From positions 1,883,329-1,947,328 of the forward strand of contig NZ_MU255056.1 of assembly GCF_000227725.2 (NCBI RefSeq): a DNA stretch of 64,000 nucleotides. Direction: 5' to 3'. Under the pieces are notes generated by a model, which did not search any database, was not told where the DNA came from, and saw only the letters and a program-made list of their open reading frames with translations. The position numbers were made by a program, and so were the translations under genes. Numbering within the stretch: position 1 is the first letter of the stretch; each line of letters opens with the position of its first letter. Source of the DNA: Thiorhodospira sibirica ATCC 700588. Lineage in GTDB: Bacteria > Pseudomonadota > Gammaproteobacteria > Ectothiorhodospirales > Ectothiorhodospiraceae. Of the stretch, positions 4,663 through 48,499 are shown piece by piece.

Positions 4663-4717
4663 TCAGATCATTCGCCTGCAGCGCCAGACGGTTAAAGCCG
4701 CTAAGGCAGCACACACC

Positions 4718-4754
4718 CACCTGCCTGCGCCGCGTGCGTCGCGGCAGGCAGGCA
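4718..4754. repeat. Dispersed REP-like hairpin, copy 1
   Basis: CACCTGCCTGCGCCGCG is followed by TGCGT and CGCGGCAGGCAGG. The arms fold into a 13-bp stem with a 2-nt bulge. Near-identical copies lie at 7104-7139, 7415-7467 and 23130-23177. This copy sits between ilvC and ilvH and ends 3 bp before the ilvH stop. Confidence 0.8.
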
Positions 4755-6958: not shown

Positions 6959-7103
6959 GGTTTTGTCTCCTGCTGGCGAGAATAGCTAGGCAGCGGACAT
7001 GCAATCATGCCCGCTGAATGAATGCGATTGCGCACAACGCTCAAACCTCAGGCCCAGGGCCAACACCGCACCCACAGTACCCAAAATTATCGTACACGGT
7101 ACC

Positions 7104-7139
7104 CACCTGCCTGCGCCGCGTGCGTCGCGGCAGGCAGGC
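7104..7139. repeat. Dispersed REP-like hairpin, copy 2
   Basis: Identical over the whole unit to copy 1 at 4718 (CACCTGCCTGCGCCGCG, TGCG, TCGCGGCAGGCAGG). It sits about 145 bp upstream of the ilvI start, in the presumed leader or promoter region of the ilv operon. The other sequence in 6959-7198 contains no gene I can support. Confidence 0.8.
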
Positions 7140-7414: not shown

Positions 7415-7467
7415 CACCTGCCTGCGCCGCGCCTGCCTGCCGCGACGCGCGCGGCGCAGGCAGGTGG
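7415..7467. repeat. Dispersed REP-like hairpin, copy 3 (long form)
   Basis: The outer arms CACCTGCCTGCGCCGCG and CGCGGCGCAGGCAGGTG are perfect inverted repeats, with CCTGCCTGCCGCGACGCG inside. This long form combines the unit seen at 4718 with a flipped copy, as in BIME-type composites. It lies inside the IS200/IS605 relic. Confidence 0.75.
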
Positions 7468-7629
7468 GTTGGTTCGCCACCGTAAAAGCTCCCGCGTGGA
7501 GCTTAGCGGCGATAACCAAGCCTTCTCCTTGGGCGGTCTCGGGGCAGGAACCCACCGAAGCGTGTGTTGTATGTGCATTGTGCAACCTCGCCGTAGGAAT
7601 CCTCTTCCTTCAGGGAGAGGAGGACGTCA
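7461..7629 (+). ncRNA. Omega-RNA-like structured right end of the TnpB element
   Basis: Several helices can be drawn. GTGGGTT at about 7463 pairs with AACCCAC at about 7551. AAGCTC pairs with GAGCTT (about 7487-7504), CCAAG pairs with CTTGG (about 7517-7535), and CCTCTTCC pairs with GGGAGAGG around a TTCA loop at 7600-7620. The 3' end is GTCAA, directly before flanking DNA. This fits the RNA that guides TnpB nucleases, but there is no nuclease gene beside it, so activity would depend on a TnpB elsewhere. Confidence 0.4.
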
Positions 7630-15844: not shown

Positions 15845-15972
15845 GGAGCGCCGAGTTGCACTCGGCAGGTCAGGCAGCCCAGATATGGATTTAAAACCAG
15901 CCGACTACAAGTCGGCGCTCCAGATAACCACCCCGGCGCTACGCGCCACCCCTCCTTGAAAAGGAAGGGAGT
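15845..15972. repeat. Palindromic element type A, copy 1, with tail
   Basis: GGAGCGCCGAGTTGCACTCGGC (15845 on) and GCCGACTACAAGTCGGCGCTCC (to about 15921) are two small palindromes about 30 bp apart. A tail follows (CCAGATAACCACCCCGGCGC, then CCCCTCCTTGAAAAGGAAGGG to 15972). The same arrangement recurs at 37273 and 38977; the core alone recurs at 29445, 44010, 45738 and 46788. Confidence 0.8.
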
Positions 15973-23129: not shown

Positions 23130-23177
23130 TGCCTGCGCCGCGCCTGCCTGCCGCGACGCACGCGGCGCAGGCAGGTG
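23130..23177. repeat. Dispersed REP-like hairpin, copy 4 (long form)
   Basis: TGCCTGCGCCGCGCCTGCCT to GCGGCGCAGGCAGGTG has the same composite layout as copy 3 at 7415. Its last bases include the GTG that I choose as the start of the following lipoprotein, so the repeat touches the gene's start region. Confidence 0.8.
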
Positions 23178-23762
23178 TGTCGCGGTAGCAGTATCGTAGT
23201 GCTGCTATGGGTATATCTGGGACTGAGCGGCTGCACCCCGGTGCGCATCCATCCGCCCACGGAGCTTACCCAGCCGCGCAGTGTATTTTTGCTGGATCAT
23301 GGCCGCCACAGCTCACTGGTTTTGCCCAAACCCGACGGCGGTCTGGTGCGCTATGCCTATGGCGACCGCCATTACTACGCCTATGGTGAAACCACCTGGC
23401 GCACCGCCATCGCTGCATTATTCCAGGAAACCCCCGCCGTACTGGGTCGCCGCGACCTGCCCGGCCCGGCAGATGTCCAGCTGCTGGCCTCACAGGTCAA
23501 GGTACCGATTGCTGACATCTTCGAGATTTATGTCGAAAACGCCCGCATCGCCGCCCTGTATGCCGAACTGGAGCAACACTTTCAGCGCGCCGCGTCCACC
23601 CACTATCGCGCCGCTGTTGACCTGGAATTTGTCCCCCACCCCACCCCCTATCGCCTCACGCACAACTCCAACCAAGTCATCGCCGACTGGCTGACCTACC
23701 TGGGCTGTCGCATCGAAGGCCGCCCCATCACCGCCCACTGGCATGTACACCCTGCTCAATAA
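23175..23762 (+). CDS. Putative lipoprotein, DUF2459-like
   Basis: From GTG 23175 the product starts MCRGSSIVVLLWVYLGLSGC, a short signal peptide with lipobox LSGC (C20). The open frame extends upstream to 23097, but those codons are REP repeat DNA. The mature part has VFLLDHGRHSSLVLPKPDGG, RYAYGDRHYYAYGETTWRTA and, near the end, THNSNQVIADWLTYLGCRIE. These resemble DUF2459-type proteins (a permuted papain-like fold), known only as conserved envelope proteins. A role is not established. It closes the plus-strand run after the cyclase. Confidence 0.55.
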   Translation: MCRGSSIVVLLWVYLGLSGCTPVRIHPPTELTQPRSVFLLDHGRHSSLVLPKPDGGLVRYAYGDRHYYAYGETTWRTAIAALFQETPAVLGRRDLPGPADVQLLASQVKVPIADIFEIYVENARIAALYAELEQHFQRAASTHYRAAVDLEFVPHPTPYRLTHNSNQVIADWLTYLGCRIEGRPITAHWHVHPAQ

Positions 23763-29444: not shown

Positions 29445-29521
29445 GGATCGCCGAGTTGTACTCGGCTGGGTTTAAATCCGTGTCCCAGTGTCCCGACCAG
29501 CCGAGTGAAACTCGGCGATCC
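29445..29521. repeat. Palindromic element type A, copy 2
   Basis: GGATCGCCGAGTTGTACTCGGC and GCCGAGTGAAACTCGGCGATCC flank GGGTTTAAATCCGTGT. It follows the guaB stop by about 35 bp, so it may act as a 3' hairpin or terminator. Confidence 0.8.
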
Positions 29522-37272: not shown

Positions 37273-37393
37273 GGAGCGCCGAGTTTTACTCGGCCGGTTT
37301 TTAGCGCGGGCCCGATGATGGGCCGAGTGCAACTCGGCGTTCCAGATAACTCCCCCGCCCCTGCGCGCCCCCCTCCTTAAAAAAGAGGGGGCG
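37273..37393. repeat. Palindromic element type A, copy 3, with tail
   Basis: GGAGCGCCGAGTTTTACTCGGC and GGCCGAGTGCAACTCGGCGTTCC are followed by CCAGATAACTCCCCCGCCCC and a CCTCCTT..AAGAGGGGG hairpin. Same layout as 15845 and 38977. Confidence 0.8.
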
Positions 37394-37428
37394 TCTTTGT
37401 TTTTTTGAGGCGGCATCTGGAAGGTCAA

Positions 37429-37473
37429 GACCCCCTCCCCGCCTGCGGCGGGACTCCCCCTTGGCAGGGGGAG
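37429..37473. repeat. Palindromic element type C, copy 1
   Basis: GACCCCCTCCCCGCCTGCGG and CGGGACTCCCCCTTGGCAGG GGGAG. It is the inverse orientation of the copies at 51564 and 58344. It lies 13 bp past the nuoN stop and may end the nuo transcript. Confidence 0.8.
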
Positions 37474-37485
37474 CCTTTTTATGGG

Positions 37486-38940
37486 TTAAAACACGGCATG
37501 GGTGAGGGCGAGTAACAGGCCGGGGAGCAGGCCCAGGGCGATGAGGAGCAGGCCGTTGAGGCTCAAGGCCAGGGTGAGGTCGCGGGCGGGGCGTGGGGTG
37601 GCGGCGTGGGTGGGGGTGTCGAAGTACATGCGTTTGATGACGCGCAGGTAATAAAACGCGCCGATGACGGAGAAGATCACCGCGTACAGGGCGAGGGCGA
37701 GGTGGCCTTGGTCGAGCAGGGCTTGCAAGACAATGAGCTTGGCATAAAAGCCGAGCAGGGGCGGCAGGCCGGCCATCGAGGCCATGAGAACCAGCATCAG
37801 GAAGGCGAGCCAGGGGTGGTGGTGGTTAAGGCCCTGCAGATCGTCGAGGGTTTGCGCTTCGTGTTCGCCGCTAAGGGCGAGCAGTACGCCAAAAGCGCCG
37901 GCGGCGGTGAGGGCGTAGACGAGGATATAAAACAGTGCGGCGTGGTACCCGGCGGGGGTGGCGGCGAACAGGGCGAGGGTGACAAAGCCGATGTGGGCGA
38001 TGGTGGAGTAGGCCAACATGCGTTTGAGGTTGTGTTGGGCGATGGCGGCGAGGTTGCCCAGGGTTAAAGACAGTACCGCCAGGATCATCAGCATCCCTTG
38101 CCAGTCTACGGCCAGCGCGCCCAGCCCTTCGATGAGCAGGCGCAGGACCAGGGCCAGCGCGGCGAGTTTGCTGACGCTGCCGATAAACAGCGTGACCGGG
38201 GTCATGGCGCCTTCGTAGACATCGGGGACCCAGGCATGGAAGGGCACCGCGCCGAGTTTGAAGGCGAGCCCGACGAGCAGGAAGGTGAGCGCAAAGCCCC
38301 AGGCCAGATGGGTGAGGCTGCCGGGGTCGGGCAGGCTGGCCGGGTCGCTCAGATGGGCGGCGAGGGTGTGCAGTTCGAGGGTGCCGGTGAGGCCATAGAC
38401 GATGGACATGCCGTACAGCAGCAGGCCGGAGGCCAGCGCGCCGAGGACGAAAAATTTCATCGCGGCTTCCAGTGCCGGGGGGTGTTCGCGGTTGAGCGCG
38501 ACCAGGGCGTACAGACACAGCGCCAGCAGTTCCAGCCCCAGATACAGGGTCAGCAGGCTGTGGGCGGAGATCATGATGAACATCCCCAGCACGGCGAAGA
38601 GGATGAGCACATAGAACTCGGCGCGGGGCAGGTGGGGGCGGCGTTCGAGGTAGCTGCGGGTGTAGATCAGGCTGACGGCGGTGAGCAACAGCACCGCGCT
38701 TTTGAGCAGGGTGGCCAGGTCGTCGGCGACGTAGTGATGGTTGAAGGTCAGGCTGCGGCTCTCCGGCGCACTCCACCAGACCCACCCCAGCGCCCCGGCG
38801 AGGGTGAACTGGCTCAGGCCATACAGCAGGGTGTGGCGCTGGGCGCTGACAAACACCGCCAGCATGAGCAGGGCACAGCCCAGGGTTAAGAGCCACAGCT
38901 CCGCAGCGGCCAGGCTGAAATCAGGCAGTTCAAAGGTCAT
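37486..38940 (-). CDS. nuoN: NADH-quinone oxidoreductase subunit N
   Basis: A 484-residue membrane subunit, one of the three antiporter-like proton channels of complex I. Around 14 helices can be drawn. Conserved segments: AELWLLTLGCALLMLAVFVS, LLTLYLGLELLALCLYALVA (charged Glu in helix 5), HAWVPDVYEGAMTPVTLFIG and NLKRMLAYSTIAHIGF. It is the last gene of the operon. A type A repeat fills the gap to nuoM. Confidence 0.95.
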   Translation of the reverse strand: MTFELPDFSLAAAELWLLTLGCALLMLAVFVSAQRHTLLYGLSQFTLAGALGWVWWSAPESRSLTFNHHYVADDLATLLKSAVLLLTAVSLIYTRSYLERRPHLPRAEFYVLILFAVLGMFIMISAHSLLTLYLGLELLALCLYALVALNREHPPALEAAMKFFVLGALASGLLLYGMSIVYGLTGTLELHTLAAHLSDPASLPDPGSLTHLAWGFALTFLLVGLAFKLGAVPFHAWVPDVYEGAMTPVTLFIGSVSKLAALALVLRLLIEGLGALAVDWQGMLMILAVLSLTLGNLAAIAQHNLKRMLAYSTIAHIGFVTLALFAATPAGYHAALFYILVYALTAAGAFGVLLALSGEHEAQTLDDLQGLNHHHPWLAFLMLVLMASMAGLPPLLGFYAKLIVLQALLDQGHLALALYAVIFSVIGAFYYLRVIKRMYFDTPTHAATPRPARDLTLALSLNGLLLIALGLLPGLLLALTHAVF

Positions 38941-38976
38941 TAAGCAATCCTAATCAACAGATAAAACGTCACTGGC

Positions 38977-39095
38977 GGATCGCCGAGTTTTACTCGGCAG
39001 GTTTTTAGCCCGTGTTCCGATGAGCCGAGTGCAACTCGGCGCTCCAGATAACCACCCCGGCGCTACGCGCCACCCCTCCTTGAAAAGGAGGGGTG
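38977..39095. repeat. Palindromic element type A, copy 4, in the nuoM-nuoN junction
   Basis: GGATCGCCGAGTTTTACTCGGC and GCCGAGTGCAACTCGGCGCTCC are followed by the tail CCAGATAACCACCCCGGCGC and a CCCCTCCTTGAAAAGGAGGGG hairpin. It fills most of the 181-bp gap. Confidence 0.85.
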
Positions 39096-39121
39096 TCCGT
39101 TTCCGTTTGCGCGCCCAGGGC

Positions 39122-40678
39122 TTACAACAGCTTGGAAACGGCGACATGGGCCAGCAGGTGTTCCAGGGTGGTGTGCATCATGTGCAGCAGCGGCGCGGGC
39201 CATAGTCCCAGCAGCAGCACCAGGGCGGCGAGCAGGCCAAGCACCCAGGCCTCGCGGGCGCTCAGGTCGTGCAGTTCAGCCACACGCGGGGCGACGATGG
39301 GGCCAAACACCACCCGCTTGATCAGCCACAGGCTGTAGGCCGCGCCGAGGATTAAGGTGGTTGCGGCGAGTACGGCGATCAGCGGATGGGCTTTGAAGCT
39401 GGCCAGAATCACCAACAGTTCCCCGACAAAGCCGGAGGTGCCGGGCAGACCGGCGTTGGCCATGGCAAACAGCACAAACAGCGCGGCGAACCAGGGCATG
39501 GTTTGCACCACCCCGCCGTAGTCGTTGATCTGGCGGCTGTGCAGACGGCTGTACAGGGCGCCGACGCAGAAAAACAGCGCCGCCGAGATCAGCCCGTGGG
39601 AAATCATCTGCACCATCGCCCCGCTCAAGGCCAGCACTGCGCCTTGTGGCAGGGGGGCGCTGCTGTCCAGGGCGGTGGGCAGGGCGGCGCTGTGGCTGCC
39701 GTAATAGATCATGAAGATGATGAAGGTGCCCAGGGTGACAAAGCCCATGTGGGCAATGGAGGAATAGGCAATGAGCTTTTTCATGTCCTGCTGGGCCAGG
39801 GCGACAAAGCCGATATACACAATGGCCACCAGCGAGAAGGTGATCATCAGCCAGTCCAGCGCGGCGGCGGCATCCGGGGTGATGGGCAGGCTGAAGCGCA
39901 AAAAGCCATAGCCGCCGATTTTGAGCATGATCGCCGCCAGCACCACCGAGCCGCCGGTGGGGGCCTCGACGTGGGCATCGGGCAGCCAGGTATGCACTGG
40001 CCACATGGGGATTTTCACCGCAAAAGCCCCGAAGAAAGCCAGGAAGATGAGGATCTGCGCGGTCATGCCCAAGGGCACTGCGTGTAAGTCGGTGAGCGCA
40101 AAGCTGCCGGCCTGGGTATACAGATAAATCAGGGCAATCAGCATCAGCACCGAGCCCAGGAAGGTGTACAGAAAAAACTTCAGGGTGGCATAGATGCGGT
40201 TTGGCCCGCCCCAGATGCCGATGATCAAAAACATCGGGATCAGCATGGCCTCAAACAGCACATAAAAGAGGATCGCATCCTGCGCGGCAAAGACCCCGTT
40301 CATCAACCCCGCCAGCGCCAGAAAGGCCGCCAGATAATGCGCCACCTGCTGCTTGACCGCCTCCCAGGCGGCGATGATCACCAGCACGTTGATCAAGGAG
40401 GTCAGCACAATCAGCGGCAGGGAGATGCCATCGACCCCCAGGGCGTAGTGAATGCCCAGCGGGGCAATCCACACCACCTGCTCGACAAACTGCAAGGCGG
40501 CGCTGTGCGGGTCAAAATGCACCACCAGCGGGATGCACCAGGCCAGGGTCAGCACCGCACAGGCCAGCGCCAGACGCCGCGCCCCTTGCGGAAAGGCATC
40601 ACCGACCAGGGCTACCAACACCGCGCCCACCAACGGCGTCCACATCACCAGGGTTAATAAAGGCCACTCAGCAAACAT
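39122..40678 (-). CDS. nuoM: NADH-quinone oxidoreductase subunit M
   Basis: A 518-residue antiporter-like subunit of complex I. It has GIHYALGVDGISLPLIVLTS, FYVLFEAMLIPMFLIIGIWG (conserved Glu), PMWPVHTWLPDAHVEAPTGG SVVLA and QQDMKKLIAYSSIAHMGFVT. I chose ATG 40678 rather than the TTG just before it. Flanked on both sides by palindromic repeats. Confidence 0.95.
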   Translation of the reverse strand: MFAEWPLLTLVMWTPLVGAVLVALVGDAFPQGARRLALACAVLTLAWCIPLVVHFDPHSAALQFVEQVVWIAPLGIHYALGVDGISLPLIVLTSLINVLVIIAAWEAVKQQVAHYLAAFLALAGLMNGVFAAQDAILFYVLFEAMLIPMFLIIGIWGGPNRIYATLKFFLYTFLGSVLMLIALIYLYTQAGSFALTDLHAVPLGMTAQILIFLAFFGAFAVKIPMWPVHTWLPDAHVEAPTGGSVVLAAIMLKIGGYGFLRFSLPITPDAAAALDWLMITFSLVAIVYIGFVALAQQDMKKLIAYSSIAHMGFVTLGTFIIFMIYYGSHSAALPTALDSSAPLPQGAVLALSGAMVQMISHGLISAALFFCVGALYSRLHSRQINDYGGVVQTMPWFAALFVLFAMANAGLPGTSGFVGELLVILASFKAHPLIAVLAATTLILGAAYSLWLIKRVVFGPIVAPRVAELHDLSAREAWVLGLLAALVLLLGLWPAPLLHMMHTTLEHLLAHVAVSKLL

Positions 40679-40717
40679 CAAAAAGTCCTGTTGGGTTGAC
40701 TAAAAAAACACCTACCG

Positions 40718-40804
40718 GGAGCGCGGAGCACCAGCTCCGCACCGGGGGTGCCGAGCTCCAGCTCGGCAGAGATAATGAATGCGGAGCTGGTGCTCCGCGC
40801 TCCC
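40718..40804. repeat. Palindromic element type B, copy 1, in the nuoL-nuoM junction
   Basis: GGGAGCGCGGAGCACCAGCTCCGC, a central CCGAGCTCCAGCTCGG palindrome, then GCGGAGCTGGTGCTCCGCGCTCCC. The outer arms are inverted repeats, so the whole 87 bp can fold into one long structure. Confidence 0.85.
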
Positions 40805-40808
40805 AGGG

Positions 40809-42863
40809 CTACCACAGCATCAGCCCAAAGATCAGCAGGCCGAGGATCATGGCGAAGGCGTAGTGATACAGGTAGCCGCTTTGCAGGCGGCGGATGCGCT
40901 GTGCCAGGGCGCCGATGCTGCGGGCGCTGCCGTTGACCAGCCAGCCATCAATCACGGTGCGATCGCCCACGCGCCATAGCAGCCGCCCCAAGGCGACGCT
41001 GCCACCGGCTAAGACTTTGGCATTGAAGGCGTCAAAGCCGTATTGACGCAGCAACACCGCCTGCACCCAGCGCAACCGCGCCGCGATCACGCCCGGCCAG
41101 TGTGGGCGGTGCAGGTATAAAAGCCACGCCAGCGCCACGCCGCTCAACGCCAGCCATACCGGCGGCATCATCAGGCCGTGCAGGATAAAGCCGCCGATGC
41201 CGCTGTAGCTCTCGCCCAGCTGCGCCAGCACATCACGCGCCGGATCGACCGTGAGCACGCCGTCAAAGAAATCGCCAAACAGCAGCGGCCCGACCACCAG
41301 CCCGGCCAGTACCGAGGGAATCGCCAGCAGAATCAGCGGAATCGTGACCACGGGGGGCGATTCGTGGGGGGTGTGACTGGGAGCGCGGAGCACCCGCTCC
41401 GCATCAGGGGTGCGCAGCTCCGGCTGCGCATGATGATGATCATGAGTGTGATCATGTGACGCGAGCTGCGCATGATGATCATCTGCGGAGCTGGTGCTCC
41501 GCGTTCCCGGTGGCTGGTGAAACACCATAAAGATCATCCTGAAGGTGTACAGGGCGGTGACGAAGACCCCGGCGAGGATGAGTACATAGGCAAAGCCTGC
41601 GCCGGGGAGGGTGGACAGGGCGACGGCTTCGATGATGGCGTCTTTGGAGAAAAAGCCCGACATGCCCGGAAAGCCGATCAGCGCCAGGGCGCCGATCAGG
41701 GCGGTGACGTAGGTAATCGGCATCACCCGCCACAGCCCGCCCATGCGGCGCATGTCCTGCTCGTGGTGCATGGCGATGATCACCGAGCCGGCGGCGAGGA
41801 AGAGCAGCGCCTTGAAAAAGGCATGGGTCATCAGGTGAAACAGCCCGGCGGCGTAGGCCGATGCGCCCAGGGCGACGGTCATATAGCCCAGCTGTGACAG
41901 CGTGGAGAAGGCCACCACCCGCTTGATGTCGTGCTGCACCAGCCCCAGCAGGCCCATGAAAAAGGCACTCAGCGCGCCGATGATCAAAATCACGCTCAAG
42001 GTGGTCGGCGAGGCCTCAAACAACGGCGACAGCCGCGCCACCATGAAGATCCCGGCAGTGACCATGGTGGCCGCATGAATCAGCGCCGAGATCGGCGTCG
42101 GGCCTTCCATCGAATCGGGCAGCCACACATGCAGCGGCACCTGCGCCGATTTGCCCATCGCGCCGATGAATAACAGGATGCAGGCCAGGGTCAGCAGCGA
42201 GGTCTCATACCCGGCCCACAGCGGCACCTGCGCCTCGCGCAAGCCCTCCACCTGGGCAAAGGTGGCGGCATAGTCCAGGGTGCCGGTGTAGAGCACCAGC
42301 GCGGCAATGCCGAGAATAAAACCAAAGTCGCCAACGCGGTTGACAATGAAGGCTTTGAGGTTGGCATGAACCGCCGAGGGGCGTTGATGCCAAAAGCCGA
42401 TGAGCAGATACGACACCAGCCCCACCGCCTCCCAGCCAAAAAACAGCTGCAGGAAGTTGTTCGCCATCACCAGCATCAGCATGGCGAAGGTAAACAGCGA
42501 GATATAGCTGAAAAAGCGTTGATAGCCGGGGTCATCACGCATATAGCCGATGGTGTAGATATGCACCATCAGCGAGACAAAGGTCACCACCAGCATCATC
42601 AAGGCGGTGAGATTGTCCACCAGAAAGCCGATCTCAAAGCGGATGCCGTCGCTGACCAGCCAGGTGTAGACGGTTTCGTTGTACACCGGCGCACCGCCAA
42701 ACACATGCGCCCAGAACACCCACACGGATAGCCCAAAGGCGATACCGACCCCCAAAATGGTCACGCTTTGCGCCCCGCGCCGCCCGATCTGCCGCCCCCA
42801 TAAACCGGCCACCAGCGCGCCCACAAGCGGCGCCAGCACAATGCTTAGATAGACCCCATCCAC
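40809..42863 (-). CDS. nuoL: NADH-quinone oxidoreductase subunit L, with in-frame repeat insertion
   Basis: The 684-residue distal proton-pumping subunit. Conserved segments: FFSYISLFTFAMLMLVMANN, WEAVGLVSYLLIGFW, VPLHVWLPDSMEGPTPISAL IHAATMVTAGIF, and QHDIKRVVAFSTLSQLGYMT. About residues 452-491 are encoded by type B repeat DNA and read GTRSTSSADDHHAQLASHDH and ERVLRAPSHTPHE, a His-rich loop. Other NuoL proteins also have a variable, often His-rich loop here, so the insertion is tolerated. The frame stays open, so the protein should be functional. nuoK lies 3 bp upstream. Confidence 0.94.
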   Translation of the reverse strand: MDGVYLSIVLAPLVGALVAGLWGRQIGRRGAQSVTILGVGIAFGLSVWVFWAHVFGGAPVYNETVYTWLVSDGIRFEIGFLVDNLTALMMLVVTFVSLMVHIYTIGYMRDDPGYQRFFSYISLFTFAMLMLVMANNFLQLFFGWEAVGLVSYLLIGFWHQRPSAVHANLKAFIVNRVGDFGFILGIAALVLYTGTLDYAATFAQVEGLREAQVPLWAGYETSLLTLACILLFIGAMGKSAQVPLHVWLPDSMEGPTPISALIHAATMVTAGIFMVARLSPLFEASPTTLSVILIIGALSAFFMGLLGLVQHDIKRVVAFSTLSQLGYMTVALGASAYAAGLFHLMTHAFFKALLFLAAGSVIIAMHHEQDMRRMGGLWRVMPITYVTALIGALALIGFPGMSGFFSKDAIIEAVALSTLPGAGFAYVLILAGVFVTALYTFRMIFMVFHQPPGTRSTSSADDHHAQLASHDHTHDHHHAQPELRTPDAERVLRAPSHTPHESPPVVTIPLILLAIPSVLAGLVVGPLLFGDFFDGVLTVDPARDVLAQLGESYSGIGGFILHGLMMPPVWLALSGVALAWLLYLHRPHWPGVIAARLRWVQAVLLRQYGFDAFNAKVLAGGSVALGRLLWRVGDRTVIDGWLVNGSARSIGALAQRIRRLQSGYLYHYAFAMILGLLIFGLMLW
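41391..41509. repeat. Palindromic element type B, in frame inside nuoL
   Basis: GGGAGCGCGGAGCACCCGCTCCGC starts it, GCGCAGCTCCGGCTGCGC follows, and GCGGAGCTGGTGCTCCGCGTTCCC ends it; the middle is ATGATGATCATGAGTGTGATCATG-like DNA coding for His and Asp. Same arms as the intergenic copies at 40718 and 48305. Confidence 0.85.
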
Positions 42864-42866
42864 GGC

Positions 42867-43172
42867 TTAGCCCTTCATCTCGTTGAGTTCACCCACGCTG
42901 ATGGTGCCGCGCACCTTAAACAGCATCACCAGAATCGCCAGCCCAATCGCCGCCTCGGCCGCCGCCACCGTGAGAATGAAAAACACAAACACCTGCCCGG
43001 CCAGATCCTGTAAAAAATAGGCAAAGGCGATGAAATTGATATTCACCGCCAACAGCATCAGCTCCAGACACATCAACACGATGATCAGGTTCTTGCGATT
43101 GATGAATAAACCGGCCACCCCAAGGCAAAACACCACTGCCCCAAGCACCAGATAATGCGATAAGGTGATCAT
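42867..43172 (-). CDS. nuoK: NADH-quinone oxidoreductase subunit K
   Basis: A 101-residue three-helix subunit. Start at ATG 43172 ([20 protein letters not shown]), preceded by GAGGAG 4 bp upstream; the open frame further upstream runs into repeat DNA. Conserved Glu residues occur in [18 protein letters not shown] and [15 protein letters not shown], both part of the proton path. Confidence 0.95.
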
Positions 43173-43206
43173 CAGCTCCTCGTTTATATTTAAAAACACC
43201 AAGCCT

Positions 43207-43268
43207 GGGAGCGCGCAGCACCAGCTGCGCAAAGATGTTTAATGCGGAGCTTAAGCTCCGCGCTCCCA
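43207..43268. repeat. Palindromic element type B, copy 2, in the nuoJ-nuoK junction
   Basis: GGGAGCGCGCAGCACCAGCTGCGC and GCGGAGCTTAAGCTCCGCGCTCCC with AAAGATGTTTAAT between. The rest of the 226-bp junction (43269-43398) holds no gene. Confidence 0.85.
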
Positions 43269-43398
43269 GGGGGCTGCGCGCCCCGATCCAGAAAAAACCC
43301 CATGATGGATTTATGCCTACACAATGTGTCGTGAAAAAACCCGTTTAGCCCGGACACCCGCGTCGTGATAAAACCCTCGTTTATCCCGGCGCTCCCGC

Positions 43399-43995
43399 CT
43401 ACTTCTGGCGCAAATCCACCATCTTGATGCGATCTTTGGCACGCACCTTAACCGCCTCGGCGGGGTCGATGCTTTTGCTGGTGCGGCGGCGGCGCGGGTC
43501 CAGCGTCAGCGTAATCGCCGCAATCACCGCCACCAGCAAGATCACCGCTGCGATCTCAAAGGGGTAGACATATTCGGTATACAGCACCTGCCCGATGGCC
43601 AGCGTGTTGTTATAGTCCGCCCCGGCGCGCAAGGGGGTGGTGCGCTCAAACACCGTCTCGCGGGTGAGCACCCAGATCATCCCCGCGCCCATCACCAGCG
43701 CCACCAGCCCGCCGATCGGCAGATAACGCACAAAGCCCTCGCGCAACTGGCTTACATTGAGATCCAGGGTCATCACCACAAACAAAAACAGCACCATCAC
43801 CGCGCCCACATACACCAGCACCAGCACAATGCCTAAAAACTCCGCCTCCAGCAGCACCCACAACACCGCCGCCGCAAAAAACGCCGCCACCAGCGAAAGC
43901 GCCGCGTGTACCGGGTTTCTCACCGTGATCATCAACAGACTCGCCAGCACCAACACCGCCGCAAAGCCATAAAACACTGCTAATTCAAGGGTCAT
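43399..43995 (-). CDS. nuoJ: NADH-quinone oxidoreductase subunit J
   Basis: A 198-residue subunit with five predicted helices: ELAVFYGFAAVLVLASLLMI, NPVHAALSLVAAFFAAAVLW, EAEFLGIVLVLVYVGAVMVL FLFVVM (the pi-bulge helix 3 of complex I), PIGGLVALVMGAGMIWVL and a last one before the basic tail (LDPRRRRTSKSIDPAEAVKV). Slightly longer tail than in E. coli. Confidence 0.94.
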   Translation of the reverse strand: MTLELAVFYGFAAVLVLASLLMITVRNPVHAALSLVAAFFAAAVLWVLLEAEFLGIVLVLVYVGAVMVLFLFVVMTLDLNVSQLREGFVRYLPIGGLVALVMGAGMIWVLTRETVFERTTPLRAGADYNNTLAIGQVLYTEYVYPFEIAAVILLVAVIAAITLTLDPRRRRTSKSIDPAEAVKVRAKDRIKMVDLRQK

Positions 43996-44009
43996 TTAAA
44001 TATCCTGTG

Positions 44010-44086
44010 GGATCGACGAGTTGCACTCGGCTGGTCGTGCAACCGGTTTATGGATTAAAAACCTGCCGAGTACAACTCGGCGCTCC
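44010..44086. repeat. Palindromic element type A, copy 5, in the nuoI-nuoJ junction
   Basis: GGATCGACGAGTTGCACTCGGC and TGCCGAGTACAACTCGGCGCTCC with GGTTTATGGATTAAAAACC between. It ends 4 bp before the nuoI stop codon. Confidence 0.85.
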
Positions 44087-44089
44087 CCG

Positions 44090-44575
44090 CTAACGATACG
44101 GCGCATCGAGGGTGCGGGCGTGCTGGATGGCGGTTTCGTGTTCATCGCCGTAGGCCAGCAGCATCGCCTTGGTCTGGATGGCGTCTTGGCGTTGTTTGAA
44201 GTCATAGGCAAACACCTGCGTCTCGACAATCGAGTCCACCGGGCAGGCTTCTTCACAAAAGCCGCAGTAGATGCACTTAAACAGGTCGATGTCATAGCGC
44301 GTGGTGCGCCGGGTGCCGTCGTCGCGGGTGGTCGATTCGATGGTAATCGCCAGCGCCGGACACACCGCCTCACACAGTTTGCAGGCAATACAGCGCTCCT
44401 CGCCATTGGGATAACGGCGCAGCGCATGACGCCCGCGAAAACGCGGCGACAGCGGCGTGCTTTCCTCGGGATATTGCACCGTGATCTTGCGCGCAAACAG
44501 ATACCGCCCGGTCAGCCGCAAGCCCTGGAACAACTCCCACAGCAGAAAACTTTTGAAAAAATGACGTATGTGCAT
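44090..44575 (-). CDS. nuoI: NADH-quinone oxidoreductase subunit I
   Basis: A 161-residue peripheral-arm subunit with two [4Fe-4S] clusters (N6a, N6b). The motifs are [19 protein letters not shown] and [19 protein letters not shown]. Start at ATG 44575 ([20 protein letters not shown]); the open frame upstream is repeat DNA. N-terminal helix anchors to the membrane arm. Confidence 0.96.
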
Positions 44576-44595
44576 GGTTTTCTCTCGTGCAAACT

Positions 44596-44674
44596 GGGAG
44601 CGCGGAGCACCAGCTCCGCATAAAAAAACCACAAGGCCTGCGGCCTTGTTGCGGAGCTTAAGCTCCGCGCTCCC
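44596..44674. repeat. Palindromic element type B, copy 3, in the nuoH-nuoI junction
   Basis: GGGAGCGCGGAGCACCAGCTCCGC and GCGGAGCTTAAGCTCCGCGCTCCC flank ACAAGGCCTGCGGCCTTGT, itself a palindrome. Confidence 0.85.
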
Positions 44675-44678
44675 AGGC

Positions 44679-45719
44679 TTAACTAAACCACGGCCCGAGG
44701 TTGAAGCCGATGGCCAGGCCGATGACGACGATCCACACTAACGTCACCGGGATTAACACCTTCCACCCCAGGCGCATGAGCTGGTCGTAGCGGTAGCGCG
44801 GGAAGGTGGCGCGGAGCCAGAAAAACACGAACAGGAAAAACGCGGTTTTCAGCAGCAGCCAGTGAATCCCCGGCCCCAGGAGCCAGCCGATGACCGGCAG
44901 GGCAAAAGCCGCCTCGGGCAACAGGCCCTCAAAGGGCGACAGCCACCCGCCGAGAAACAAAAGCGCAGTGAGGGCGGCAATCAGGATCATGTTGGCGTAT
45001 TCGGCCAGGAAGAACAGCGCAAAGGCCATGCCGGAGTATTCGACGTGAAAGCCGGCGACGATCTCTGACTCGCCCTCGGGCACGTCGAAGGGGGCGCGGT
45101 TGGTCTCGGCCACCCCGGCGATGAAATACACCACAAACAAGGGCAGCAAGGGCAGCCAGTACCAGTGCCAAATACCGCCTTGCTGGGCGCTGACGATCTG
45201 CCCCAGGTGCAGGCTCCCGGCGGCCATGAGTACGCCGACCAGGGCAAAGCCCATGGCGATTTCATAGGACACCATCTGCGCCGCCGAGCGCATCGCGCCG
45301 AGCAGGGCGTATTTGGAATTGGAGGCCCAGCCGGCGAGGATGATGCCGTACACCCCCAGCGAGCTGAGCGCCAGCACATACAGCAGCGCGGCGTTGATGT
45401 CGGCAATCACCCAGCCGTCGCTAAACGGGATCACCGCCCACACCGCCAGCGCCGGCACCAGCGCCAGCACCGGCGCGAGCAAAAACAGGTAGCGGTTGGC
45501 CTGACGCGGCAGGATGATTTCCTTGGTCAGCAGCTTGACCGCATCGGCAATGGGCTGTAGCCAGCCGCGTGGCCCCACGCGATTGGGGCCGATGCGCACC
45601 TGGATATAGCCGATCACCTTGCGCTCGGCATAGGTGGCATACGCCACCGCCAGCAGCAAGGGACTCACCACCATCCCAATCTTGAGCAAAATCTCCAGCA
45701 ATAACGGCAATTCAGGCAT
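44679..45719 (-). CDS. nuoH: NADH-quinone oxidoreductase subunit H
   Basis: A 346-residue membrane subunit that forms much of the quinone site. Conserved: [96 protein letters not shown], and [22 protein letters not shown]. Length normal. Confidence 0.96.
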
Positions 45720-45737
45720 ATATTTCTCTCTACCGAG

Positions 45738-45814
45738 GGATCGCCGAGTTGTACTCAGCGGGTTTTTAATCCGTAGATCGGTTGCTCAATCTGCCGAGTA
45801 CAACTCGGCGCTCC
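45738..45814. repeat. Palindromic element type A, copy 6, in the nuoG-nuoH junction
   Basis: GGGATCGCCGAGTTGTACTCAGC and TGCCGAGTACAACTCGGCGCTCC with GGTTTTTAATCCGTAGATCGG between. It fills most of the 111-bp gap. Confidence 0.85.
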
Positions 45815-45830
45815 GACTCCGCGCTCCCGG

Positions 45831-48287
45831 TTAGCGCACGTCTACCAAGCCGTAGGCGGGGCCGAGGGCGGCAGTGGCTTTGACGCCCAGGGGCAGGACG
45901 ATGGAGCCGAGCGGGACGCCGGGGTCGCGCTGTAATGTCAGATCCACCACCATGCCATCCTGGCGCACTTCGATGCGCGTCTGGCTGGCGGGGATGCCAT
46001 GATGTTTGGCCTCGTCGGGGTGCAGGCGCGCCACGCTCACGCCCGCCTCGCCATAGGGCAGGGCTTGCAGGGGCGCGGCGCGGCGCACCATGCCATCGCT
46101 GCCCAAGGGCGCACGATAGCTTTGCCGCCACAGGCCCCGGCGGGTGTCGGCCGGGCAGGCATAGGGCGTGTCGGTGGCGTTTAACAGCAGATAGGGGTTA
46201 GGCCGGGGGCCGGGCGGCGGACACAGTGCCGCCAGTTCCTCGCGCAGTTGTTGCGGGCTGTGATAGTCAAAATTGGCCAGCCCCGCCAGGGTGCCCAGCA
46301 CCCGCAATACCTTCCACGCCGGGCGCGCCTCACCCGGCGGCGGTATCGCCCCGGCCATGCTTTGCCAGCGCCCTTCGGCATTCACCCAGGTGCCGCTGCT
46401 TTCCGGCCCGACGGCAATGGGCAGGAGCACATCGGCGTGATCCCACAGCGCCTGACTGGGGTAGGCGCTCAAGGCGACCACACTGCGCGCCTCGCGCAAC
46501 CGCTGACGGGCCAGGGCCGGATAGGCGGTGTCGCGCTCGGGTTCTACATCGAGAATGAAGTAACGCTTGGCCGGTGCCTCCCAGCCGGCGGTTTCGGAGG
46601 CACACGGGCGCGCCGCACCGCCCGCTTGACGGTGACGCACCGCCCCGGCCAGATAGGCCCCGGCACTGTTGGCGTGGCTGGGTACCTCGCCCCAGGCGCT
46701 GTGGCTATGCTCCGCCAGCACACTGGCCAACGCCCGCAGCAGACTGTAATCCGGGTGCAAGGTAAGCTGACTGCTGAGGAGGATCAGGAGCGCCGAGTTG
46801 TACTCGGCTGGTTTTGAATCCATAGACGGGTCGCCCGACGAGCCGAGTGCAACTCGGCGCTCCGGCGCTCCCAGGCACAACACCGCCAACACCGCTTCAT
46901 CGTCTTTATGCAGCACGGCGCGCCCTAAGACCTCGGCCAGGGCGGCGGGGTAGGCCACGCCCTGGGCATCGAGCAGCGCCCGGGTCAGTCCGGCGAGGCG
47001 TTCGACCAGGCCGCTGGGGTGGACGATGTGATGCGCGGCCAGCGGGTGCAGCGGCTGGGTGTTGTAGGTTTCCAGCAGCCAGATCTGCGTGTCGTGATGC
47101 AGTGCCGCCTGTCGCAGGCGGTGATGCAGGAGCGGTTGATCCTGACGCGGCCCCGGCCCCAGCCACAGCAGCTGTTCCAGCCCGGCGATGTCATCGAGCG
47201 CCATGCCCAGACTGGGGTAGGGCGCTTCGTGTTCGGGGTGGCGCAGGTCGGTCTGTGACAGGCGATGTTCCAGGCGCTCGATGCCCATACCGCGCAGCAG
47301 CTTTTGCGCCAGATACAGGCTTTCCAGCGGTTGTTGCGGCGAGAGCCAGGCTTGGCTCTGCGCCGGTTCAGCGCGCAGAATCTCCAGCGTGGCCTCCAGC
47401 GCGGTGTCCCAATCGCAGCGCTGCCATTCGCCCTGGCGGCGGATCATCGGATGGTGCAGGCGTTCGGCGCTGTGCAGGCCGGTGTAGGCGAAGCGGTCGC
47501 GGTCACTGAGCCAGATCTCGTTGATGGCTTCACAGGCACGCGGCACCACGCGCATCACCTCGGCGCCCAGGGTGTGCCAGTACAGGTGCGAGCCGAGGCT
47601 GTCATGCAGCCCCAGCCCCGGCTGGGCGCGCAGCTCCCACGGCCGGTAGCGGTCTTTGGAGGGTTTGGCGGTGAGCGCACCGACCGGACACAGGTCAATG
47701 ACATTGGCCGACAGCTCATGGGCGAGGGTGTGGGCGACAAAGGTGCCGATGCGCATAAACTCGCTGCGCCCGGTGGCCCCCAGCTCGCGCAGCCCGGCAA
47801 TCTCGCTGCCAAAGCGCACACAGCGGGTGCAGTGAATGCAGCGGGTCATCTCGGTGGCAATCAGCGGCCCGAGGTCTTCATTACACACCGCCCGCTTGGC
47901 CTCGCGATAGTGTGACAGCCCCGCGCCATAGCCTTGCGCGACGTCTTGTAACTCGCACTCCCCGCCCTGGTCACACACCGGGCAATCCAGCGGGTGGTTG
48001 ATCAGCAAAAACTCCATGGTCGCCTTTTGCGCGGCGCGGGCCTTGGGCGAGGCGGTATACACCTTCATCCCCGCCATCACCGGCGTGGCACAGGCGGGCA
48101 GCGGCTTTTGCGACTTCTCCACCTCCACCAGACACATCCGGCAATTCGCCGCAATGGCGAGCTTTTTGTGGTAGCAGAAACGCGGAATCGCAATCCCCTC
48201 ACGATCCGCCACCTCAATCAGCAACTCGCCCTTGCGTGCCCGACACACCCGGTCGTTTATGCTTAACTCAATCACATCCTCAGTCAT
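45831..48287 (-). CDS. nuoG: NADH-quinone oxidoreductase subunit G, with in-frame repeat insertion
   Basis: The 818-residue largest peripheral subunit. N-terminal cluster ligands: RFCYHKKLAIAANCRMCLVE (2Fe-2S), CPVCDQGGECELQD, then the 4Fe-4S site TRCIHCTRCVRFGSEIAG. The molybdopterin-oxidoreductase-like domain follows from about residue 220. About residues 475-500 ([31 protein letters not shown]) are encoded by a type A palindromic element, read through in frame in the variable middle of the domain. The frame continues to EVRQDGMVVDLTLQRDPGVP, a normal C-terminus, so function is probably kept. Confidence 0.94.
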   Translation of the reverse strand: MTEDVIELSINDRVCRARKGELLIEVADREGIAIPRFCYHKKLAIAANCRMCLVEVEKSQKPLPACATPVMAGMKVYTASPKARAAQKATMEFLLINHPLDCPVCDQGGECELQDVAQGYGAGLSHYREAKRAVCNEDLGPLIATEMTRCIHCTRCVRFGSEIAGLRELGATGRSEFMRIGTFVAHTLAHELSANVIDLCPVGALTAKPSKDRYRPWELRAQPGLGLHDSLGSHLYWHTLGAEVMRVVPRACEAINEIWLSDRDRFAYTGLHSAERLHHPMIRRQGEWQRCDWDTALEATLEILRAEPAQSQAWLSPQQPLESLYLAQKLLRGMGIERLEHRLSQTDLRHPEHEAPYPSLGMALDDIAGLEQLLWLGPGPRQDQPLLHHRLRQAALHHDTQIWLLETYNTQPLHPLAAHHIVHPSGLVERLAGLTRALLDAQGVAYPAALAEVLGRAVLHKDDEAVLAVLCLGAPERRVALGSSGDPSMDSKPAEYNSALLILLSSQLTLHPDYSLLRALASVLAEHSHSAWGEVPSHANSAGAYLAGAVRHRQAGGAARPCASETAGWEAPAKRYFILDVEPERDTAYPALARQRLREARSVVALSAYPSQALWDHADVLLPIAVGPESSGTWVNAEGRWQSMAGAIPPPGEARPAWKVLRVLGTLAGLANFDYHSPQQLREELAALCPPPGPRPNPYLLLNATDTPYACPADTRRGLWRQSYRAPLGSDGMVRRAAPLQALPYGEAGVSVARLHPDEAKHHGIPASQTRIEVRQDGMVVDLTLQRDPGVPLGSIVLPLGVKATAALGPAYGLVDVR
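46788..46863. repeat. Palindromic element type A, in frame inside nuoG
   Basis: GGAGCGCCGAGTTGTACTCGGC and AGCCGAGTGCAACTCGGCGCTCC flank GGTTTTGAATCCATAGACGGG. It is the same element found between genes, here open in the nuoG frame with no stop codon. Confidence 0.88.
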
Positions 48288-48304
48288 GCGTGTTCGGTCT
48301 CATC

Positions 48305-48499
48305 TGGGAGCGCGGAGCACCAGCTCCGCAACAAGGCCGCAGGCCTTGTGGGTTTTTTTAGGTGTCTGCGCCGCTGCGGCTGGGAGCGCGGAGCTTAAGC
48401 TCCGCAACAAGGCCGCAGGCCTTGTGGGTTTTTTTAGGTGTCTGCGCCGCTGCGGCGGCGCAGCGATGTTTAATGCGCAGCCGGTGCTGCGCGTTCCCA
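48305..48499. repeat. Palindromic element type B, two tandem copies plus half, in the nuoF-nuoG junction
   Basis: GGGAGCGCGGAGCACCAGCTCCGC with ACAAGGCCGCAGGCCTTGTGG and GTTTTTTTAGGTGTCTGCGCCGCTGCGG, then the same unit again with the GCTTAAGC variant, then AATGCGCAGCCGGTGCTGCGCGTTCCC. Longest repeat block in the operon. Confidence 0.88.

Follow-up and report, generated by a model that had tools for sequence, protein, structure and literature searches.

A GGAG-tagged REP doublet read in frame within the predicted NuoG protein of Thiorhodospira sibirica

A REP is, by definition, a palindrome that carries a GT[A/G]G tag (PMC3686654; PMC8266576), and REPINs are inverted REP doublets (PMC3116915). 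Di Nocera et al. 2013 described, for several species, REPs of the GTAG and CGTC types that are contained entirely within ORFs. More than half of these ORF-internal REPs form doublets or groups, which code for 20-30 residues, and the intragenic repeats of R. conorii correspond to RPE-4 and RPE-6 (PMC3733652). In-frame intragenic REP doublets are a known but rare kind of insertion, reported in other bacteria. What is new in the present study is the sequence family, here termed type A, its GGAG tag in place of GTAG, and its host gene, nuoG. The first-pass annotation knew of no description of this family. The kind had already been published outside Rickettsia (PMC3733652), but the exact GGAG-tagged type A sequence was indeed not found in the open-licence papers searched.

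The window, a stretch of 64,000 nucleotides from Thiorhodospira sibirica ATCC 700588, contains nuoG, encoding NADH-quinone oxidoreductase subunit G, as an 818-residue ORF on the minus strand (45831-48287). The protein has the expected Pfam domains, and its best solved relatives are complex I subunits. The ORF stays open through a type A doublet at positions 46787-46863, which has a standard class length of 77 nt and runs from GGAG to CTCC; the copy had been located at first as 76 bp at 46788-46863, an extent that these boundaries correct. The doublet consists of two small palindromes arranged head to head, both of the form GGAG-C plus GCCGAGT-NNN-ACTCGGC. The first REP (46787-46808, plus strand) contains the stem-loop GCCGAGT-TGT-ACTCGGC, and the second, inverted REP (46842-46863, minus strand) contains GCCGAGT-TGC-ACTCGGC. 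Folded as DNA, the element forms a predicted hairpin with a z score of -7.3, and the presence of such a palindromic copy in nuoG is far beyond chance.

How does the element fit into the NuoG protein? It begins 1424 nt into the coding sequence and is predicted to fill residues 476-500, its edges falling in codons 475 and 501. When NuoG was aligned with relatives from four other genera of the family and from further families, the relatives lacked the insert residues and the conserved sequence picked up in frame on either side. The site spans 7 residues in the relatives and 31 here, a net gain of 24 residues by alignment; for example, one relative reads ...LREADSAVVLMG, whereas T. sibirica reads ...LCLGAP, the 25-residue insert and LILLSS. 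This alignment, which the first-pass annotation had proposed, confirms the insertion, and the refuting case that relatives might share the residues without the palindrome came out negative. The earlier reading of an intact frame through the element also holds, but its peptide of about 26 residues does not, as residues 476-500 are encoded and 'LGAP' belongs to the left flank. In an AlphaFold model built from the alignment, pLDDT falls below 50 at residues 477-494, between a confident helix (461-472) and a confident strand (497-504), and the insert is thus predicted to occupy a variable, low-confidence helix-to-strand loop. The model is also poor at residues 35-218, the iron-sulfur part, probably because of a shallow alignment and missing cofactors, and this part was not used. 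At the level of the predicted protein, a mobile palindrome has added about 25 residues to NuoG and left the gene unbroken.

The type A family was surveyed across the genome (3.20 Mb, 5 contigs). Its half-site gave 51 forward and 49 reverse matches at no more than one mismatch, against none for a reversed-pattern control. The stretches taken around these matches contain 46 doublets, a minimum for the genome, alongside 43 half-sites that are single or looser. Doublet lengths cluster at 69, 70, 77 and 85 nt; the inverted arms are 87.5% complementary, and the stems are 97% paired. The tag is GGAG in 55 of 88 arms and GGAT in 28, the other five carrying different tags. Within the window, further doublets outside the nuo operon occupy 15845-15921 and 29445-29521 (77 nt each). 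The best reading of the nuoG element is that it is, in all likelihood, a REPIN-like REP doublet, one of these 46 or more paired copies. Separately, type A half-sites are packed densely in tandem at C5:198446-199318 (L090 3047-3919), in a cluster that ends in four identical GCCGAGTACAACTCGGCGATCC units spaced 24 nt apart, and the window holds a third and unrelated family of GC-rich inverted repeats (TGCCTGCGCCGCG...CGCGGCGCAGGCA) at 4715-4753, 7101-7139, 7419-7469 and 23130-23180. Elsewhere, the exact type A half-site was found in just one other genome among 369 sampled from the host class, with two half-sites. In a genome from another family of the class (G091; L137, L139), palindrome pairs with the type A half-site occur in two copies, such as GGGATCGCCAAGTTGTACTTGGC ... 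GCCGAGTGCAACTCGGCGCTCCCGG, located upstream of genes or between genes.

The family resembles described REPIN/RAYT systems (PMC3116915, PMC3733652, PMC8266576) in its inverted palindromes with outward tags, its spacer and its single predicted hairpin, as well as in its dozens of mostly intergenic copies and in a RAYT flanked by tagged palindromes. It differs from them in carrying GGAG (or GGAT) plus C instead of GTAG or GTGG, and its stems are unlike those beside the RAYT. None of the 88 arms has the terminal GTAG tag, which sets type A apart from the GTAG-tagged REP superfamily. The intragenic GTAG and CGTC REPs of several species likewise form in-frame doublets of 20-30 residues within ORFs, but they belong to other sequence families, and DNA-repair genes are prominent among their hosts (PMC3733652), in contrast to nuoG, nuoL and gmhB here. 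The first-pass annotation had also drawn a parallel to Rickettsia palindromic elements, and the two are comparable, since an intergenic-type palindromic repeat is read in frame in nuoG. Those elements (cited in PMC3733652) are in-frame palindromic repeats in genes likely to encode functional proteins, and in-frame palindromic inserts were found here in nuoG and gmhB and, as type B repeats, in nuoL. However, Rickettsia palindromic elements are described from another organism with another sequence, and genic copies are rare in the present genome (2 of 46 doublets).

The gene survey proposed earlier for the element covered near-consensus copies and ORFs of at least 150 codons, using a dicodon model trained on long ORFs of the same genome. 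By this model, two of the 46 doublets lie inside coding sequence, in nuoG and in the 3' part of a gmhB-like gene, and both are in frame; by contrast, a rough, window-only estimate that assumes a coding density near 0.8 would place about 37 of 46 within genes at random. Genic type A copies are therefore a rare exception. The gmhB doublet (C4:891586-891654; L059 2987-3055) is 69 nt, or 23 codons, long and lies near the 3' end of the gene. It is missing in ten relatives, as in the example TLARGALPAQTRVFPDLA versus TLARL[GGAPSCTRLVFNPCPDEPSTTRRSA]RVFDDLA here. Another copy in a long, weak ORF (L077) was rejected as genic, as it reads as intergenic, between hemE-like and tsaD-like genes.

A second family, type B, has the form GGGAGCGCGGAGC-NNNN-GCTCCGC, shares the GGAG-C head with type A and occurs as 30 exact half-sites in the genome. 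Its one pair within a long ORF lies in nuoL (40809-42863, minus strand), where two in-frame REPs (41379-41402, plus strand; inverted partner at 41485-41508, minus strand) flank and lie within a variable His-rich loop. REPs of both families are concentrated in the nuo operon, which forms a hot spot. The 11.3 kb at positions 37273-48498 contain several type B REPs as well as five type A doublets; for the five doublets, P = 8e-7, uncorrected for the choice of region. In addition to the nuoG copy, the type A doublets are one of 71 nt at 37273-37343, one of 69 nt at 38977-39045, directly downstream of the nuoM ORF (39122-40681), and two of 77 nt in the nuoI-nuoJ gap (44010-44086) and the nuoG-nuoH gap (45738-45814). 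REPs are present in the F-G, G-H, H-I, I-J, J-K and L-M gaps; the 3-nt K-L gap has none.

The intercistronic copies indicate the size of the inserted unit. The nuoG-nuoH gap of 111 nt equals 34 + 77 nt, where 11 of 13 relatives have 32-43 nt and the other two 3 and 54 nt, and the nuoI-nuoJ gap of 94 nt equals 17 + 77 nt, where 12 of 13 relatives have 12-24 nt and the remaining one 86 nt. Because both copies lengthen their gaps by about 77 nt, the inserted unit is most likely 77 nt, which is 2 modulo 3. Given a unit of this length and no target duplication, an additional, unplaced gain of 1 nt or loss of 2 or 5 nt must have occurred in nuoG, either together with the insertion or after it. The alignment favours a net gain of 72 nt at the nuoG site, in a region that is itself variable. 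Of 12 copies in the 77-nt class, 7 lack a stop in the frame that nuoG uses, as does the consensus of the 12, and a selected loss of a consensus stop in the nuoG copy was therefore dropped as an explanation.

One RAYT in the genome, at C4:2140956-2141660, scores above the NCBIfam curated cut-off. The GGAG-C palindromes that flank it, 18 nt from one end and 103 nt from the other, have type B stems and not type A ones. Among the RAYTs found in other genomes, the nearest comes from a different genus (G007, 53% identity) and adjoins an array of CCTGGGAGCGCCAAGC-NNNN-GCTTGGC that has the same GGAGCGC head and 49 copies in that genome. The palindromes beside these two RAYTs suggest that the GGAG-C head goes with the RAYT clade and that the stems vary by genome; among 19 more distant RAYT-like loci, a single GGAG hairpin was present at one. 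Judging from the shared GGAG-C head, type A elements are probably mobilised by the RAYT of this genome. A second Y1-transposase match (L047) adjoins an apparent IS605-type TnpB and was set aside. Beside the RAYT (L046, from 542 onward), an ORF with a long EGRQ repeat run lies next to a masked N stretch.

We therefore propose, with a probability of roughly 0.8, that the nuoG element is a RAYT-spread REP doublet that is tolerated in a NuoG loop. Its two inverted, tagged palindromes around a spacer could fold as one long hairpin, and it would have spread as single-stranded DNA via the REP-associated tyrosine transposase (RAYT). The nuoG copy would have survived through its loop position, its open frame and a net length that chanced to fit, and, given this chance fit, the approximately 25 extra residues would be tolerated rather than useful. 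Two observations count against this reading: the tag is GGAG or GGAT, whereas described REPs carry GT[A/G]G, and the RAYT-adjacent REPs carry type B stems. Directly before the element in the nuoG sense, CCTGGGAGCGCC (46864-46875, minus strand) is an exact match to the head of the REP array next to the G007 RAYT. Owing to this identity, it may be a REP-head remnant and perhaps part of the insertion history. A head duplication beside copies occurs in 3 of 88 flanks, the nuoG copy among them, against 2 in the control, which is not significant.

Could the doublet instead have been retained for a function, either because its mRNA hairpin adjusts nuo expression or as a new protein loop? The predicted RNA hairpin is very stable (-50 kcal/mol, z = -7.8), and REPs of both families crowd the nuo operon. 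However, chance survival is enough to account for one genic copy, no ordered structure is predicted for the insert, and this copy, spacer included, and the nearest one differ at 9 of their 77 positions with no sign of selection. Retention for function is thus unlikely. We consider it similarly doubtful that a separate REP/RAYT branch, made up of the GGAG-tagged REPs and the RAYT clade that goes with them, favours the nuo operon, with the nuoG, nuoL and gmhB copies retained as acting mRNA hairpins or protein loops.

A classical MITE, with the terminal inverted repeats of an insertion sequence that encodes a DDE transposase and moved by cut-and-paste, would fit the length and the inverted ends of the element. 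However, 40 non-redundant flanks yielded one target-site duplication match at 2-3 nt and none at 4-9 nt, which is not above expectation, and type A arms resemble REPs in that each forms a hairpin of its own, with a 3-nt loop, and in that solo arms are common, making a MITE origin quite improbable. Assemblers can misplace repeats, but an assembly or base-calling artefact at the nuoG copy is extremely improbable, because a stray 77-nt insertion alone would break the frame between conserved blocks, and also given that the repeat is shorter than ordinary reads, that this copy has its own spacer sequence, and that the 818 codons are open, with strong coding scores on both sides, in the only full-length NuoG match in the genome.

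The REP doublet in nuoG, probably spread by the RAYT, is a clean case in which a mobile palindrome has turned into predicted protein sequence in a core respiratory enzyme outside Rickettsia. The survival rate of such elements in genes becomes countable, at 2 of 46 doublets in this genome. Furthermore, the family hints at a REP/RAYT branch with a GGAG tag, for which the rule of recognition could be tested against the GTAG rule.
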